A stretch of DNA of 64,000 bases, taken from NCBI RefSeq assembly GCF_017641085.1, contig NZ_JAEPPI010000002.1, positions 806,001 through 870,000 of the forward strand, given 5' to 3'. The position numbers and the translations under genes are program-made. Each line of letters opens with the position of its first letter. Position 1 is the stretch's first letter. Below the pieces are notes generated by a model. It was not told the origin of the DNA. It ran no database searches and saw nothing but the letters and a program-made list of their open reading frames with translations. This DNA is from Gracilimonas sp. GTDB lineage: Bacteria; Bacteroidota; Rhodothermia; Balneolales; Balneolaceae. Of the stretch, positions 26,041-47,559 are shown one piece after another.

Positions 26041-27207
26041 CTATTCTATTTCATCAATATCATCTGAATAAACAGAAGGATTTGCCTCCCGAAGGTTATA
26101 TGCACTTCGCATCACTTCTCCATAAGCACCGGCGCTGCGTATGGCAATTAAATCCCCGCGCTGCACTTCCGGTATAGAAACATCCTTACGAAAAGTATCG
26201 GAGCTTTCGCAAATAGGGCCGACCACATCATAGGTTTTTTCACCTTTATCGCTGGTGAGTACATCAATGCGGTGTTTGGCCTGATACAGAGCCGGACGAA
26301 TAAGCTCTGTCATCCCCGCATCAACGATAGCAAAGTTCTTGGCCTTTCCTTCTTTTGTATAGAGAACACGCGTGATCAGACTTCCGCATTGCCCGGCTAC
26401 TGAACGTCCCAATTCGAAGTGTAAGCTCTGGTGGTTTTTAAGCTTGATGTTTTCTTCAAACAGACTGAAGAAACGCTCAAAATCAGGTACAGAATGGTCA
26501 TTGGGGTGATCATAATTGATACCAAATCCACCGCCCACATTAATCACGGTCAGTTTAAAACCTTTGTCTTCAATGTAATTATTAAGTGCATTGGCTTTGG
26601 AGCAGAGCTCCTCAAAAGGGGTAAATTTTTCTATTTGTGAACCGATGTGAAAGTGAATACCAATGAGCTCCAGGTTTTCCAGGTCCGGAAATTTGTCAAG
26701 AACGGTATCCAGATCCGATTCATTAATTCCGAACTTATTTTCATTCAACCCGGTGGTGATGTATTTATGAGTGTCGGCTTCCACATTGGGGTTAAGTCGC
26801 AAGGCCACCCGTGCTTTCTTCCCATGCTGTCCGGCCAGTTCATTCAACACATCGAGTTCCTGGGTAGATTCACAGTTAAAGCAAAAAATGTCGTGCTTCA
26901 ATCCAAGCTCAATTTCTTCATCACTTTTACCAACCCCGGCAAAGGCAATTTCATCCGGGGAAAAACCGGAATCTATCGCTCTCTGTACTTCTCCGCCGCT
27001 TACACAGTCGGCGCCGAGGCCTGATTCCCTGATTACATTAAGAATGCGTGTTTGGTTATTCGCCTTTAGCGCAAAATGGACGTGAAATCCTTTTGAAATG
27101 GCATGTTTCTTAACTTGTTCAAGAGTATTTCGAAGGACATCAAGATCGTAGAAAAAATAAGGGGTTTTAAATTCCTGTAGCGCAGAAATCACAATATTAG
27201 GAAACAT
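26041..27207 (-). CDS. lysA: Diaminopimelate decarboxylase
   Basis: 388 residues, PLP-dependent fold III. It converts meso-diaminopimelate to L-lysine, the last lysine step. The PLP lysine lies in HFALKANNQTRIL; GADCVSGGEVQRA, HFHIGSQIEKF, VGGGFGINYD and VGPICESSDTFRKDVSIPE are family motifs, the last with the active-site Cys. It lies convergent to the flavoprotein gene with a 7-bp gap. Upstream on its strand is a hairpin with T-run (27272-27300) within the leader. Confidence 0.95.
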   Translation of the reverse strand: MFPNIVISALQEFKTPYFFYDLDVLRNTLEQVKKHAISKGFHVHFALKANNQTRILNVIRESGLGADCVSGGEVQRAIDSGFSPDEIAFAGVGKSDEEIELGLKHDIFCFNCESTQELDVLNELAGQHGKKARVALRLNPNVEADTHKYITTGLNENKFGINESDLDTVLDKFPDLENLELIGIHFHIGSQIEKFTPFEELCSKANALNNYIEDKGFKLTVINVGGGFGINYDHPNDHSVPDFERFFSLFEENIKLKNHQSLHFELGRSVAGQCGSLITRVLYTKEGKAKNFAIVDAGMTELIRPALYQAKHRIDVLTSDKGEKTYDVVGPICESSDTFRKDVSIPEVQRGDLIAIRSAGAYGEVMRSAYNLREANPSVYSDDIDEIE

Positions 27208-27687: not shown

Positions 27688-29793
27688 ATGAAGCACGAAA
27701 AATTAGCTAAAGAATTAGGCCTCTCAGATGTATATGCGATTGCAACAGGGGCTATGTTTAGCTCGGGGTTTTTTCTATTACCTGGTCTGGCCGCTGCAGA
27801 AACAGGCCCATCCGTATTTCTCGCTTATTTTGTTTCCGGGTTGATTGTATTGCCCACCATGTTTAGTGTAGCTGAATTGGCTACTGCCATGCCCAGGGCC
27901 GGAGGAACCTATTACATCATAGACAGAAGTCTCGGCCCAATGATTGGAACCATCGGGGGCTACGGTTCGTGGCTGGCACTGGTACTAAAAAGTGCGTTTG
28001 CCTTAATCGGGATGGGGGCCTACATCTCCATTTTTTATGAAGTGCCTATAGTTCCTGTAGCGATCATCCTGACGATTGTTTTCGGGATTTTAAATGTAGT
28101 AGGAGCCAAAGAGACTACATTCTTGCAAAAAGTTCTGGTTGCTGCATTGGTTTCCATAATGGCGTTCTACATTATTCAGGGTGTTTTTGCTGTGTTCAAT
28201 ATGGATATCGTTAAGATTACCAGGGAGCAATTCACCCCTTTCTTTATTGATGGATATTATGGCTTCTTTGCCACGGTAGGGATGGTTTTTGTTTCTTATG
28301 CGGGACTTACCAAAGTGGCTAGTATAGCCGAAGAGGTGAAAAACCCGGACCGGAATATTCCACTGGGTATGTTTCTCGCGATAGCAACGGCGGTTTTTGT
28401 ATATGTAATTGGCGTTTATATCATGGTGGCGCTACTTGAACCGGAAGCGTTCCGTGAGGATTTAACACCGGTAGCTACTGCAGGAGAAGTATTTTTAGAC
28501 TGGCTGCCAGAACCAACGGGGCTGATTTTGGTAGTGATTGCAGCGGTGGCTGCTTTTGCCTCAACAGGTAACGCAGGTATTATGTCGGCTTCCCGGTATC
28601 CTATGGCGATGGCACGAGATAAGCTGATTAATGAACGTTTCGCCAAACTAAGTAAGCTTGGAACGCCCCTATGGTCGGTAGTAGCAACCGTGTTGATGAT
28701 GATTTTCTTCCTTGTTGCTTTTAATGTGGCAGAAGTGGCCAAGTTAGCCAGTGCATTCCAGTTATTGTTATTTGGTCTGTTGAACCTTGCCGTTATCGTG
28801 ATGCGGGAAAGTAAAATTGAGGAATACGACCCTGGTTTCAATTCACCTTTCTACCCATGGATTCAGATTGCCGGGATCATATTGTCGATTGTATTGATTT
28901 TTGAGATGGGTGGGCTTTCCATTCTATTTACTCTTGTAGTGAGTGTATTTGGTGTAATCTGGTTCAAGTATTATGCAGCTGACAAGGTAGATCGTCAAGG
29001 TGCTATTTTCCATGTTCATGCCCGGTTGGGGGAAAATAAAGATCAGGGGCTAGAGCACGAAATGAGAACCATTTTAAGAGAAAAAGGCCTTCGCCAGGAA
29101 GACCCTTATGAAGAAATGATCTCAAGGGCCAGGGTACTGGAGTTCTCAGGATCCACCAGTTACGATGAAATTCTGACGGCTACCAGTGAGGAATTTGCCG
29201 AACAACTGGGTAAAAACCCCAATGAATTGTACGACATGCTTTCTCAGTTGGAAGAAGACCGAATTATCCCTATTGCTAAAGGGGTGGCTCTTAATCATGC
29301 CCGGATGAAAGAAAAGGTAGAGCCGGAGATGGTGCTGGTACGGGTAAAAGACGGATTGGAAGTGGACAAGCTTAAAAATCTGGATTCCAAAAAAGCCGGC
29401 GCAGAAAAATTAAGCTGCCTGTTATTTTTTATCAGTTCAGATGAAAACTCAGGACAGCATTTGAGGATTTTGGCTCATGTTGCTGAAATGGTAGGCACAA
29501 AGAACTTCCTTGACCGGTGGGTGAATGCAGAAAATGAAGCGGAACTGAAAGAAATTTTGCTGCGTGACGAGCGCTTTATCCGCCTCATCCTGAATCCGGA
29601 GGATAAAACTGATGAGTTTATCGGGAAAATGATTAAAGATGTGTCTTTGCCGGGACAAAGCCTGATTACCATTATCCGGAGGAAAGACCAGATCAAAATC
29701 CCGCATGGAATCACCGTACTCCAGGAAGGGGATGAGCTCTCCATTATCGGAGAGATTGAGGACATTAAAGAGCTGAAAAAGCTGCTAAAGTAA
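27688..29793 (+). CDS. APC-superfamily permease fused to PTS EIIA (type 2) and TrkA-C domains
   Basis: 701 residues in three parts. Residues 1 to about 430 are a 12-TM APC amino-acid/polyamine permease (AIATGAMFSSGFFLLPGLAA, AMPRAGGTYYIIDRSLGP). Residues about 480-630 match the PTS EIIA type 2 (PtsN/fructose) fold: VLEFSGSTSYDEIL, then GVALNHARM with the phospho-acceptor-position histidine near 537, then HLRILAHVAEMV. Residues about 635-701 form a TrkA-C/RCK_C ligand-binding domain (GITVLQEGDELSIIGEIED). The two cytoplasmic domains suggest gating by phosphorylation and by a small ligand. HPr and Enzyme I are encoded at 45.5-47.6 kb. The substrate is unknown. Confidence 0.88.
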   Translation: MKHEKLAKELGLSDVYAIATGAMFSSGFFLLPGLAAAETGPSVFLAYFVSGLIVLPTMFSVAELATAMPRAGGTYYIIDRSLGPMIGTIGGYGSWLALVLKSAFALIGMGAYISIFYEVPIVPVAIILTIVFGILNVVGAKETTFLQKVLVAALVSIMAFYIIQGVFAVFNMDIVKITREQFTPFFIDGYYGFFATVGMVFVSYAGLTKVASIAEEVKNPDRNIPLGMFLAIATAVFVYVIGVYIMVALLEPEAFREDLTPVATAGEVFLDWLPEPTGLILVVIAAVAAFASTGNAGIMSASRYPMAMARDKLINERFAKLSKLGTPLWSVVATVLMMIFFLVAFNVAEVAKLASAFQLLLFGLLNLAVIVMRESKIEEYDPGFNSPFYPWIQIAGIILSIVLIFEMGGLSILFTLVVSVFGVIWFKYYAADKVDRQGAIFHVHARLGENKDQGLEHEMRTILREKGLRQEDPYEEMISRARVLEFSGSTSYDEILTATSEEFAEQLGKNPNELYDMLSQLEEDRIIPIAKGVALNHARMKEKVEPEMVLVRVKDGLEVDKLKNLDSKKAGAEKLSCLLFFISSDENSGQHLRILAHVAEMVGTKNFLDRWVNAENEAELKEILLRDERFIRLILNPEDKTDEFIGKMIKDVSLPGQSLITIIRRKDQIKIPHGITVLQEGDELSIIGEIEDIKELKKLLK

Positions 29794-29810
29794 AGCTATA
29801 GCAGCTTTTT
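29776..29810. terminator. Bidirectional terminator shared by the 3' ends of two convergent genes
   Basis: AAAAAGCTGCT (29776-29786) and AGCAGCTTTTT (29800-29810) form an 11-bp stem over a 13-base loop that contains both stop codons. Each arm encodes Lys-Lys-Leu-Leu at the end of its own protein. Confidence 0.75.
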
Positions 29811-31064
29811 GGTCAGCTTCTCAATGATCTCGTCAAAACTGAGAGACATCTCTTCACTTTCCTTCATATTACGAAGGGTGAACTTGCCTTCATTCAGTTC
29901 ATTGTCTCCGACAATGAGTGTATAAAGGGCGTTCTCCCGGTTGGCATCCTTCATCTGAGCTTTCATTGAACGGCTCATATAATCCATGGTAGCTGAAAGT
30001 CCGGCTTCCCTGGTTTTGGGAAGATGGGTGAGTGCCCATTTTCGTGCAGCATCACCAAGCGTCACAAAGTAAACATCTACAGCTTTCTCCTCGGCAAGTT
30101 CAATGCCCAGTTCTTCACAGGCAATCATTAGCCGCTCCATGCCAGCGGCAAATCCTACAGCAGGAGTAGAAGGCCCGCCAACTTCTTCAACCAACAGGTC
30201 GTAGCGACCACCACCGGCCAGAGCATCCTGCGAGCCAAGATCCGGGCTGGTAAGCTCAAAAGCTGTGCGGGTATAGTAATCCATACCGCGGACAAGATGC
30301 GGATCGAGGGAATAGGAGATTCCGAGGTCGTCCAGGTAGCTTTTAACCTTTTCAAAATGCTCTTTTGATTCCTCATTCAGGTAATCCTGTATCACCGGAG
30401 CTTGTTCGATGAACGGCTGATCCTCCTCTTCCTTAGAGTCGAGTATACGCATCGGGTTTTTCTCAAATCGTTTTTGAGAAAGCTCGCTCATCTCATCAAG
30501 ATTTGGCTTCAGGTATGCCCGCAAAGCTTCTTTGTATGCTTCCCGGCTTTCGGGGTCACCCACAGAATTGAGTTTCAGATCAAAATTCTTAATGCCAATA
30601 CGCTGGTATATGCGCATCATAAAAGCGATGCACTCAACATCAGCGATAGGATCGTCGCTGCCCAGTATCTCCAGCCCAAACTGATGGAATTGTCTTTGTC
30701 GCCCTTTCTGAGGTTTCTCTGCCCGGAACATCGGTCCTATATAATAAAGCTTCTGAGAACCGCCGCGCTGCTGCATATGATGTTCCACAAATGCACGTAC
30801 CACGGGAGCGGTCAGCTCAGGCCGCAACACATAATGACTGTCCCCCTTTTCGAAAGCAAAAATCTCTTTAGATACAATATCCGTCAATTGTCCCACGCCC
30901 CGCACAATCAACTCGGTTTGCTCCATGATGGGAGTGCGAATTTCTTCGAAATTAAATTTAGCGGCTTCCTCCTGAATAATCTGTTCGAGAGCTCTCCATT
31001 TAGGGGATTCGTCAGGAAGGATGTCCACCATTCCAAGGTGGGTAGTGTATTTGGGTTTGGGCAT
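29796..31064 (-). CDS. hisS: Histidine--tRNA ligase
   Basis: Class II aminoacyl-tRNA synthetase, 422 residues. Motif 1 lies near the N-terminus (EIRTPIMEQTELIVRGVG). Motif 2 is YIGPMFRAEKPQKGRQRQFH with FHQFGLEILGS after it. The histidine-specific loops LVRGMDYYTRTAFE and GGGRYDLLVEEVGG are present, and an anticodon-binding domain follows at the C-terminus (about 330-422). Upstream on the minus strand TATCTTTA (31111 down to 31104) could be its -7 box with a leader of about 35 bases. Confidence 0.96.
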   Translation of the reverse strand: MPKPKYTTHLGMVDILPDESPKWRALEQIIQEEAAKFNFEEIRTPIMEQTELIVRGVGQLTDIVSKEIFAFEKGDSHYVLRPELTAPVVRAFVEHHMQQRGGSQKLYYIGPMFRAEKPQKGRQRQFHQFGLEILGSDDPIADVECIAFMMRIYQRIGIKNFDLKLNSVGDPESREAYKEALRAYLKPNLDEMSELSQKRFEKNPMRILDSKEEEDQPFIEQAPVIQDYLNEESKEHFEKVKSYLDDLGISYSLDPHLVRGMDYYTRTAFELTSPDLGSQDALAGGGRYDLLVEEVGGPSTPAVGFAAGMERLMIACEELGIELAEEKAVDVYFVTLGDAARKWALTHLPKTREAGLSATMDYMSRSMKAQMKDANRENALYTLIVGDNELNEGKFTLRNMKESEEMSLSFDEIIEKLTKKLL

Positions 31065-45558: not shown

Positions 45559-45831
45559 ATGATCAAAAAGAAAGTAACCATAATAAATTCAGCGGGTTTA
45601 CATGCGCGTCCATCGGCGCAGCTAGTTAAACTTGCCAGTAAGTTTAAGTCCGATTTTTTCATACACAGCTATGGATATCGGGTTAACGGGAAAAGTATAT
45701 TGGGAGTTATGACGCTGGCTGCTGAATCCGGTGCGGAATTAGAGTTGGAGGTTGAAGGGCCGGATGAAGAAGAAGCCATGGAAGCCATCGTAGATCTGGT
45801 AGAGAATAAATTTGGAATGGAAGACGAATAA
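45559..45831 (+). CDS. HPr family phosphocarrier protein
   Basis: 90 residues. The active-site histidine is His15 in SAGLHARPSAQLV, which takes phosphate from Enzyme I. The regulatory serine is Ser46 in NGKSILGVMTLAAES, the site used by HPr kinase where one exists. The 18-bp gap to the EI gene marks an operon. No sugar EIIC or EIIB gene lies in the window, so the pair is probably regulatory; the EIIA-fused permease at 27688-29793 is a candidate recipient. Confidence 0.95.
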   Translation: MIKKKVTIINSAGLHARPSAQLVKLASKFKSDFFIHSYGYRVNGKSILGVMTLAAESGAELELEVEGPDEEEAMEAIVDLVENKFGMEDE

Positions 45832-45849
45832 CAGCCGGATACATATACT

Positions 45850-47559
45850 ATGGAAGCCACAAACACCGATGAAATTACATTAAAAGGCCGAAGTGTTGGC
45901 TCCGGTGTGGCTATAGGTAAAGCTGTTTTATTGAGCTCCGAATCCAAGACGGTTACTCCAACCTCGATTAATAAATCGGCGGTAAAGAAGCATAAAAATC
46001 GATTTTTAAAAGCGAAGGAGAGTCTTATTGCTGAGCTTCAGCTGATGGCCGATGAACTGAATGATGCCGGCTCAGTAGAAATAATTGATACGCAGAAGCA
46101 AATTATTCTGGATGCCGAAATTGAGAGGAGCGTTTTTGAAATCATAGAAGACAAGCTCCTTAGTGTTGATTTCGCCATCTATCAAACCTACTGCCAGTTT
46201 ATTGAGCGACTGAAACAAAGTGGTTCCGAATTGTTCCGGCAGCGCATTGTAGATCTTGAGGACATACGGGACCGGTTCATAGACCTGGTTTGTGATCAAA
46301 AGAAAAAGAAATCGGTAAAGAAAGGCTCGCTTATCGTCGCGCGTGAAATCAGCCCAACCGACCTGGTTTCTTATTATGAAGACGGTGCCATTGGCTTGGT
46401 CATGGAGAAAGGTGGGGTAACCTCTCATGCTGCCATTATCGCCAAATCGCTTGGAATTCCCTGTATTGTAAGTGCCGAAAAAGCGACCAAGGAAGTGCTT
46501 AATGATAAGATGTTAGTTCTGGATGCCGCAGAGGGAACCTTGATTTTAAACCCGTCGCGTAAAACCATATCCAGATATCGTAAAAAAGCTGAAGAAGCTG
46601 CCCGGAAAAAGAAAAAGCGCCTCGACAGTTTTGAGACGGCCGATGGCGTTTCCCTGAAAATTACAGCTAATATTGAATTCGAGGCCGAGCTTCCAAAAAT
46701 AAAAGAACACGGCGCGCAGGGTATTGGGTTGCTGAGAACGGAGAGCCTGTTATTTGGCCACCGGTTAAGAAAAAGCATGGAAGAACAACGAGCTTTTTAT
46801 TCGGCTGTGTTAGAACGATCCACCGGGTCGGTTACGATTCGGTTGTTCGACATTGGCGGAGATAAAACCAGCAGCCGGACGGTGAAAGAGGCGAACCCGT
46901 TTTTAGGATGGAGAGGCATACGCCTGCTGCTGGACGAAAAAGAACTCCTCCAAAATCAGCTCAAAGCAATTGTTAGAACTGCAGCTGCATATCCGGGAAG
47001 AATTCGGGTTTTGGTGCCCATGGTATCTGTGATCGATGAAGTAGCTGAGATTAAGAATGAACTTGAATCCGTTATAACAGAACTGAAAACGGAGGGTGTA
47101 GAGTTAGGTGAATCGATTCCGCTTGGGTTGATGGTGGAAGTACCGAGTGTTGCCCTTTCTGCTTATCACTTTGCCAAAGAAGTGGATTTTTTAAGCGTGG
47201 GTACTAACGACCTCACACAATATACGATGGCGGTGGATCGCGGAAATGAGCGCATCTGCAATCTATTTCAGCATTACCACCCTTCTGTGCTGCACTTGAT
47301 TAGTAACACGGTTAAGGGAGCGGAAAAAGCCGGCATTGACGTGAGCGTATGTGGCGAACTGGCCGGTGATGAAATCGGCGCAGCCTGCCTTATCGGTATG
47401 GGCATTCAGGAGTTGAGCATGGTGCCTGAGTCGATACCCGAAATCAGTGAACTCCTTCACTCCAAGACCAAAGCAGAGTTTGAGCAATTTGCAAAATCTG
47501 CACTGGAGCTATCCTCCGTTGAAGAGCTTGAAAAACTTTTTGAAGACTGGAAGAACTGA
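45850..47559 (+). CDS. ptsI: Phosphoenolpyruvate-protein phosphotransferase (PTS Enzyme I)
   Basis: 569 residues, the standard EI length, with no GAF domain of the PtsP type. An N-terminal HPr-binding helical domain (about 1-140) precedes the swivelling phosphohistidine domain with GGVTSHAAIIAKSLGIPC (His near 193). The PEP-binding barrel follows: GIGLLRTESLLFG, LGWRGIRLLL, SVGTNDLTQYTMAVDR and the acid/base Cys near 501 in SVCGELAGDE. It passes phosphate from PEP to HPr encoded just upstream. The stop lies 4 bp from the convergent SOD gene. Confidence 0.96.
   Translation: MEATNTDEITLKGRSVGSGVAIGKAVLLSSESKTVTPTSINKSAVKKHKNRFLKAKESLIAELQLMADELNDAGSVEIIDTQKQIILDAEIERSVFEIIEDKLLSVDFAIYQTYCQFIERLKQSGSELFRQRIVDLEDIRDRFIDLVCDQKKKKSVKKGSLIVAREISPTDLVSYYEDGAIGLVMEKGGVTSHAAIIAKSLGIPCIVSAEKATKEVLNDKMLVLDAAEGTLILNPSRKTISRYRKKAEEAARKKKKRLDSFETADGVSLKITANIEFEAELPKIKEHGAQGIGLLRTESLLFGHRLRKSMEEQRAFYSAVLERSTGSVTIRLFDIGGDKTSSRTVKEANPFLGWRGIRLLLDEKELLQNQLKAIVRTAAAYPGRIRVLVPMVSVIDEVAEIKNELESVITELKTEGVELGESIPLGLMVEVPSVALSAYHFAKEVDFLSVGTNDLTQYTMAVDRGNERICNLFQHYHPSVLHLISNTVKGAEKAGIDVSVCGELAGDEIGAACLIGMGIQELSMVPESIPEISELLHSKTKAEFEQFAKSALELSSVEELEKLFEDWKN

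Follow-up and report, generated by a model that had tools for sequence, protein, structure and literature searches.

A Gracilimonas APC permease carrying an EIIA type-2 and TrkA_C tail: a putative control module for which phosphorylation may be optional

The fusion protein and the PTS proteins of its genome

The window, by which we mean the whole 64,000-nucleotide stretch of Gracilimonas sp. DNA that was analysed, encodes a permease followed in the same chain by an EIIA type-2 domain and a TrkA_C domain, and farther along on the same strand HPr and Enzyme I of the phosphotransferase system (PTS). The features discussed below are these:

26041..27207, minus strand: lysA (diaminopimelate decarboxylase), neighbouring gene in divergent orientation, given for context
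27688..29793, plus strand: APC permease-EIIA type 2-TrkA_C fusion, 701 aa (open reading frame and Pfam)
27715..28902, plus strand: AA_permease_2 transmembrane domain, residues 10-405 (Pfam, 140.7 bits)
28993..29085, plus strand: membrane-proximal linker, residues 436-466 (alignment of 116 fusions)
29158..29562, plus strand: EIIA type-2 (PtsN-like) domain, PF00359, residues 491-625 (Pfam, fold match)
29296..29298, plus strand: codon of His537, EIIA phospho-acceptor position (alignment with PtsN)
29458..29460, plus strand: codon of His591, second conserved EIIA histidine position (alignment)
29611..29787, plus strand: TrkA_C (RCK_C) domain, residues 642-700 (Pfam, fold match)
29796..31064, minus strand: hisS (histidine--tRNA ligase), neighbouring gene in convergent orientation, given for context
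45559..45831, plus strand: HPr with His15 and Ser46, possible phosphate donor (translation, Pfam)
45850..47559, plus strand: PTS Enzyme I, three PEP-utiliser domains (TIGR01417 476.8 bits, cut-off 341.7)

The initial annotation of this DNA had described a permease whose C-terminal part contains an EIIA type-2 domain, a histidine of the motif GVALNHAR near residue 537 at the phospho-acceptor position, and a TrkA-C domain behind it, and all of these elements were borne out. Pfam places PTS_EIIA_2 (PF00359) at residues 491-625, inside the 480-630 stretch where the domain had been proposed, with 45.9 bits against a curated cut-off of 27, and TrkA_C at residues 642-700 with 44.5 bits (cut-off likewise 27); the Pfam-A scan of the tail returned no PTS domain other than PF00359, glucose-type IIA included. 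The motif begins at residue 532, which makes the histidine residue 537 exactly, and it aligns with the histidine of GLAIPHAK in the stand-alone PtsN of the same genome. A tail model made with AlphaFold for residues 434-701 from 53 sequences (mean pLDDT 76, moderate confidence) agrees with the assignment, its best Foldseek matches being the PtsN structures 1a6j, 3urr, 2a0j and 4gqx (TM-score by target 0.74-0.82). The same model also matched 3jxo and the RCK_C structures 5f29 and 4ys2 ('RCK domain with CDA'; TM-score by target 0.80-0.84), which have the PHG-T-L-GD segment of TrkA_C in common with the window permease, and Band 3 and other SLC4 cytosolic domains appeared among its lower-ranked matches.

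The full-length AlphaFold model (pLDDT 78) was closest to a bacterial homologue of the cationic amino-acid transporters (CAT; 6f34/5oqt, TM-score by target 0.84), and the protein is an APC-superfamily carrier, probably for amino acids. It shares the transmembrane fold with this homologue and with other APC transporters; its TM6 reads GLTK (residues 208-209 at 28309-28314) where the aligned CAT-type relatives read G-F-D. T208 is present in 115 and K209 in 112 of the 116 fusions described below. Given this difference the substrate may not be the same, and GLTK could signal an unusual substrate or coupling ion.

The HPr with His15 and Ser46 and the complete Enzyme I that had been reported at 45559-47559 were confirmed by translation, Pfam and TIGR01417. 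A survey of the genome holding the window (G000; 3.49 Mb, 98.37% complete) for further EIIA domains found two beyond that of the window permease, making three EIIA type-2 domains in all: the stand-alone PtsN and a 693-residue permease-EIIA-TrkA_C paralogue on contig 3 (L003:52-2133), outside the window. The paralogue's motif is GVICSYHA, which puts Tyr in the acceptor column, and it carries Asp at the second histidine position. HPr kinase (HprK) and a diadenylate cyclase (c-di-AMP cyclase) are also encoded. The earlier statement that sugar EII genes are missing from the window was supported for the whole genome as far as the two families searched reach: PTS_EIIC (PF02378) gave no match at E<=1, and EIIA-man gave a single match (E 0.185) under the cut-off.

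These relay proteins are not tied to the fusion. An EIIA type-2 match was present in 63 of 64 genomes picked from a 247-genome sample of the phylum, with or without a fusion, and nearly all of the 63 include a strong match in a PtsN-sized frame, so that Enzyme I and HPr need no permease as their target. We considered the presence of Enzyme I as a discriminator and rejected it, since 61 of these 64 genomes have the enzyme whether or not they have a fusion, which makes it uninformative within the phylum.

Acceptor histidine, constraint on the tail and the relay

With residues 435-701 as the query, 55 of the 247 phylum genomes gave matches, some of them to TrkA_C or antiporter tails only. A scan of a genome collection with full-length alignment yielded 315 relatives, of which the best 80 were kept, corresponding to 79 loci; the frequencies given here thus describe the best-scoring relatives and not all of them. 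Among these best 80 of 315, the loci come from Balneolaceae, Rhodothermales, Cyclobacterium and Gemmatimonadota, with a few from Lentisphaeraceae, Chloroflexi, Phycisphaerae, Deltaproteobacteria and Thermoanaerobaculia. Removal of two rows without EIIA (one L138 ORF, and L075) from a 118-row alignment left 116 distinct fusions; 18 ORFs that were incomplete, duplicated or of another architecture stood outside the alignment, and 13 further fusion proteins were examined for acceptor state outside the 116.

The acceptor column holds His in 91 of the 116 fusions, Tyr in 19, Phe in 3, Asn in 2 and Gln in 1. Conservation of the histidine in relatives, whose lack the initial annotation had listed, alongside a full sugar PTS elsewhere, as counting against its proposal, was thus upheld for 91 proteins and failed for the other 25, which fall into three clades: (i) a Salinibacter-type clade of 12 rows with Tyr; (ii) a pair with Asn and (iii) Balneolaceae paralogues, of which 11 rows have Phe, Tyr or Gln and a twelfth has a His whose context differs. 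When the tree is built from the transmembrane part only, the distribution of His and non-His states needs at least four changes, a count that is blind to gain versus loss and comes from a tree with long-branch warnings, whose starred branches alone force two changes. From the state in PtsN and the majority state we infer that His is ancestral at this column. Tandem permease copies in two loci (L077 and L083) have His in one copy and Phe in the other. The fusions of G382 and two of the three in G441 are only 642-650 residues long and seem to be without TrkA_C, so EIIA and TrkA_C are not inseparable. In Salinivenus lutea the Tyr-type fusion has another APC permease next to it, which carries Usp and has no EIIA match (L131:3579-5786).

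EIIA is the fastest-evolving part of the 116 fusions, with a mean column entropy of 2.29, compared with 2.03 for TrkA_C, 1.38 for the linker and 1.22 for the transmembrane part. This low conservation, together with the missing acceptor in three clades, speaks for a tail that is a structural or vestigial leftover, serving assembly or stability and taking no regulatory input. We consider that explanation highly improbable: R593 and F607 are invariant in all 116 proteins, W611 and A599 are nearly so, and full-length fusions occur in several phyla. His537 itself is clearly conserved in the alignment, ranking 15 of 135 EIIA columns, and His591 ranks 5 and is kept in 22 of the 25 proteins without His537. 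Pairwise identity in EIIA and in the transmembrane part, respectively, is 0.40 and 0.71 among His-less proteins and 0.36 and 0.63 among His-bearing ones; the corresponding values are 0.73 and 0.85 for the Tyr clade, whose EIIA is the better conserved, and 0.55 and 0.86 for the window's own clade. Since the His-less proteins keep their EIIA domain equally constrained, the domain probably does something there that needs no phosphorylation at the acceptor position.

The two regions flanking EIIA differ in what they suggest. In the linker, R436, G438, A439, H442 and E458 are invariant (116/116) and conservation comes close to that of the membrane part; residues 436-466 are probably a contact site, on the strength of these invariant residues, yet model confidence there is low. 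In TrkA_C, the His of the PHG motif is present in just 57 of the 116 proteins, which makes a single fixed ligand for all members doubtful.

Does the acceptor histidine report on a working relay? The initial annotation had proposed a phosphorelay PEP > EI > HPr > EIIA-permease, which in its full form would have HPr phosphorylate His537 and the phosphorylation state act as the main switch of transport. The components of this proposal stood, namely the domains, an acceptor-like histidine kept in most relatives with a well-conserved second histidine, and Enzyme I, HPr and HprK in the genome, the first of these being widespread in the phylum (61/64). The active site is a different matter. The Arg found 16 residues before the acceptor histidine of PtsN has an active-site role; the window permease has Leu instead, and none of the 116 fusions keeps the Arg.

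HPr was searched for in a first set of 50 fusion-bearing genomes and in an overlapping second set of 36, and Enzyme I in the 64 chosen genomes and in a fusion-bearing set, with few of the second-set newcomers covered. HPr was found in 45 of the 50 genomes of the first set, the same five that lack it also being without Enzyme I, and in 21 of the 36 genomes of the second set, none being detected in the other 15. These 15 genomes, whose completeness is not reported, carry His in 11 cases, Asn in 3 and Tyr in 1 (G407); one of the genomes compared, G269, has only 1.9 Mb. Among the 65 distinct HPr-bearing genomes, 13 showed only His-less copies. A link between acceptor state and HPr was considered on these figures and we claim no association, non-His states being found in 4 of 15 HPr-less genomes and as the only state in 13 of 65 HPr-bearing ones.

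Individual lineages point both ways. All three Asn-bearing genomes found (G280, G291 and G432) are without detected HPr, as expected if the histidine is useless where there is no relay; they are close to each other and probably represent one event. These genomes fit the relay idea, whereas Cyclobacterium, G382, G441 and G509 do not. Six Cyclobacterium loci (L096, L099-L103) all keep the histidine with no HPr detected, and Enzyme I was not found in the L096 genome, the one Cyclobacterium genome checked for it. Histidines kept in Cyclobacterium, G382, G441 and G509 with no HPr detected would suit another explanation, in which a former EIIA pocket has become, through His537 and His591, a site for a ligand, a proton or a metal, and EIIA responds to a metabolite or to the pH of the cytosol instead of the PTS. 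The retention of His591 in proteins without His537, the antiporters that adjoin related permeases, and the EIIA fold of SLC4 regulatory domains (in the available text of PMC4664831) are in line with it. However, only 43 of the 135 EIIA columns vary in Cyclobacterium, so that six of six has little statistical power and an unconstrained histidine would often survive by chance; furthermore, the G509 fusion has Asp at the second histidine position, and the completeness of these genomes is not reported. On balance we regard a sensory site of this kind as improbable.

The relay fares better, but we still think it rather unlikely as the main switch. The expectation that the acceptor histidine occurs only where a relay exists and is always kept there did not hold on either count (11/15 and 13/65), and with His in 11 of the 15 genomes without detected HPr, conservation alone is no proof of phosphorylation by HPr. 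Add to this the absent Arg and an EIIA domain that is constrained even without its histidine, and the part of the original proposal that made phosphorylation the determinant of transport is not supported in that form. Taken on sequence evidence, the history of the acceptor column allows for phosphorylation in certain lineages without requiring it.

Gene neighbourhood and antiporter tails

A Na+/H+ antiporter directly adjoins a permease copy in 23 of the 79 loci, where antiporter labels come from BLAST to a few reference proteins and the counts cover antiporters resembling those references; in 5 of the 79 loci no ORF was labelled as permease. The antiporter-adjacent loci are mostly from Balneolaceae, with hisS and often lysA nearby, and therefore do not amount to many independent events. 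With a lysine carrier as one candidate reading of the adjoining lysA, we recognised this gene in 11 of the 79 loci. The window has no antiporter between lysA and hisS; in G061, which belongs to the same genus as the window, the permease and a lysA-like gene are separated by an NhaP-type antiporter and a protein related to that of L158. Four antiporters of the Usp-EIIA type lie beside or near a permease:

L158:1002-3476, Usp-EIIA antiporter
L159:5649-8123, Usp-EIIA antiporter
L160:1753-4218, Usp-EIIA antiporter
L161:4616-7090, Usp-EIIA antiporter

The tails of these neighbours vary. Pfam identified Na_H_Exchanger with Usp and EIIA in the L158 neighbour, with Usp and no EIIA in L078, and with TrkA_N in L159, L161, L149 and L151 (TrkA_N only in L149 and L151); the Na+/H+ exchanger of L110 carries TrkA_N, EIIA and TrkA_C. 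By BLAST, the larger proteins of L059-L063 have tails matching permease residues 463-698. An EIIA-bearing antiporter and a Usp gene lie near the permease in L162 and L163 (Pfam for L162). In the alignment, the antiporter tails of L162-L164, L067, L069, L070 and L072 keep both the Arg and the His, and those of L060 and L063 keep the His and not the Arg.

Antiporters of the Na_H_Exchanger-Usp-EIIA type, a type defined by Pfam on L158, have Asp, Glu or, in L166, Lys at the acceptor position. Antiporters of the Usp-EIIA type in L166, L168 and L169 come from genomes in which the permease tail had no match.

In the initial annotation the fusion would couple glycolytic status to amino-acid or amine uptake. 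The gene neighbourhood points to ion homeostasis at least as much as to glycolytic status.

Relation to known systems and proposed role

There is precedent for a C-terminal IIA domain on a carrier outside the PTS. LacS-type sugar symporters have a C-terminal glucose-type IIA controlled by HPr, and the window permease resembles them in being a secondary carrier outside the PTS whose putative regulator is an EIIA at the C-terminus. It differs from LacS in that the EIIA is type 2 and not glucose-type, the carrier is of the APC fold and not a sugar symporter, and an RCK_C domain is added.

The closest parallel in the EIIA domain itself is PtsN of the PTSNtr, acting on TrkA, KdpD and YcgO: domain family and fold are the same, the acceptor histidine and the second histidine are present, and Enzyme I and HPr are encoded in the genome. 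The differences are that EIIA is here fused to an APC permease, that the Arg at -16 is absent and that a free PtsN is also present. In the available text of PMC11808508, the C-terminal region of YcgO, a K+/H+ antiporter of E. coli, is bound by unphosphorylated PtsN, which the authors suggest prevents activation by RCK, the RCK domain of YcgO being putative; a domain of this kind is also what follows EIIA in the permease tail, as RCK_C. In Rhizobium, amino-acid uptake by ABC transporters drops when K+ is limiting and in mutants of the PTSNtr, an effect presumed to come from unphosphorylated EIIANtr (PMC3665714, from the part of that text available).

Two further groups of transporters invite comparison. 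CPA antiporters with RCK_C/TrkA, some of which bind c-di-AMP, have a TrkA_C tail of the same fold (5f29/4ys2), and antiporters with EIIA or EIIA-TrkA_C tails adjoin some of the related permeases; here, by contrast, the carrier is APC, and c-di-AMP binding is predicted at most. In SLC4 proteins, the cytosolic domain is likened to EIIA in the available text of PMC4664831. The N-terminal cytosolic domain of Band 3 and NBCe is an EIIA-like fold serving as a transporter regulator, but it is eukaryotic, N-terminal and attached to another carrier. We know of no acceptor role for the EIIA-like domain of SLC4.

Action of EIIA on transporters in trans and fusion of IIA to non-PTS symporters such as LacS are already known in kind; the EIIA type 2-RCK_C tail on an APC carrier would be a variant of these. 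A PTS genomics review by Barabote and Saier (2005) may list such fusions. Among the open-access matches listed, no paper dealt with an APC-EIIA-TrkA_C protein, and the available text of PMC13104625 and of PMC12453120 contains nothing on fusions of EIIA to permeases.

We favor, with moderate confidence, the possibility that the EIIA/RCK_C tail is a built-in module that regulates the APC carrier, with phosphorylation optional, much as PtsN does but in cis. The EIIA of the tail would act as free PtsN acts on K+ transporters; it would contact RCK_C, the transmembrane domain or both through the invariant linker, and this contact would hold the carrier in a more or a less active state. RCK_C would probably add a ligand signal, as the initial annotation also supposed, with c-di-AMP or another nucleotide as the candidate, and where the relay and the histidine coexist, as they do here, the module may in addition be tuned through phosphorylated His537. 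The likely physiological outcome would be a matching of amino-acid flux to the ionic/osmotic or energy state of the cell. We infer from sequence and fold that the tail regulates transport, and whatever is said here of the direction of that effect, of ligand and substrate, or of a phosphorylated state is proposed on the same footing. Our reasoning is that lineages without the histidine keep the domain, which makes the basic role of the module independent of phosphorylation. Furthermore, the tail is kept where either the histidine or the relay was not found, and it thus probably serves for control in a general way, not just as a switch set by glycolysis.

PtsN acts on K+ transporters in trans; the fusion is a natural arrangement in which EIIA, RCK and carrier stand in one chain. 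Versions with the histidine exist next to versions that lack it, in some cases within a single genome, and comparing them would cleanly separate the action of phosphorylated EIIA from that of the unphosphorylated domain. The fusion also lets the coupling of amino-acid uptake to ion or energy state be tested in bacteria that have the relay and no detected EIIC. We put forward more tentatively, as a possibility that we would not rate as probable, that EIIA-RCK_C is a portable, phosphorylation-optional cassette that several phyla have fitted to APC permeases as well as to Na+/H+ antiporters, and a bacterial counterpart of the EIIA-fold domain of the SLC4 bicarbonate carriers. If this were true, a permease copy with His beside one with Phe, together with antiporter tails with Asp, would place relay-sensitive and relay-blind regulators in one membrane system.
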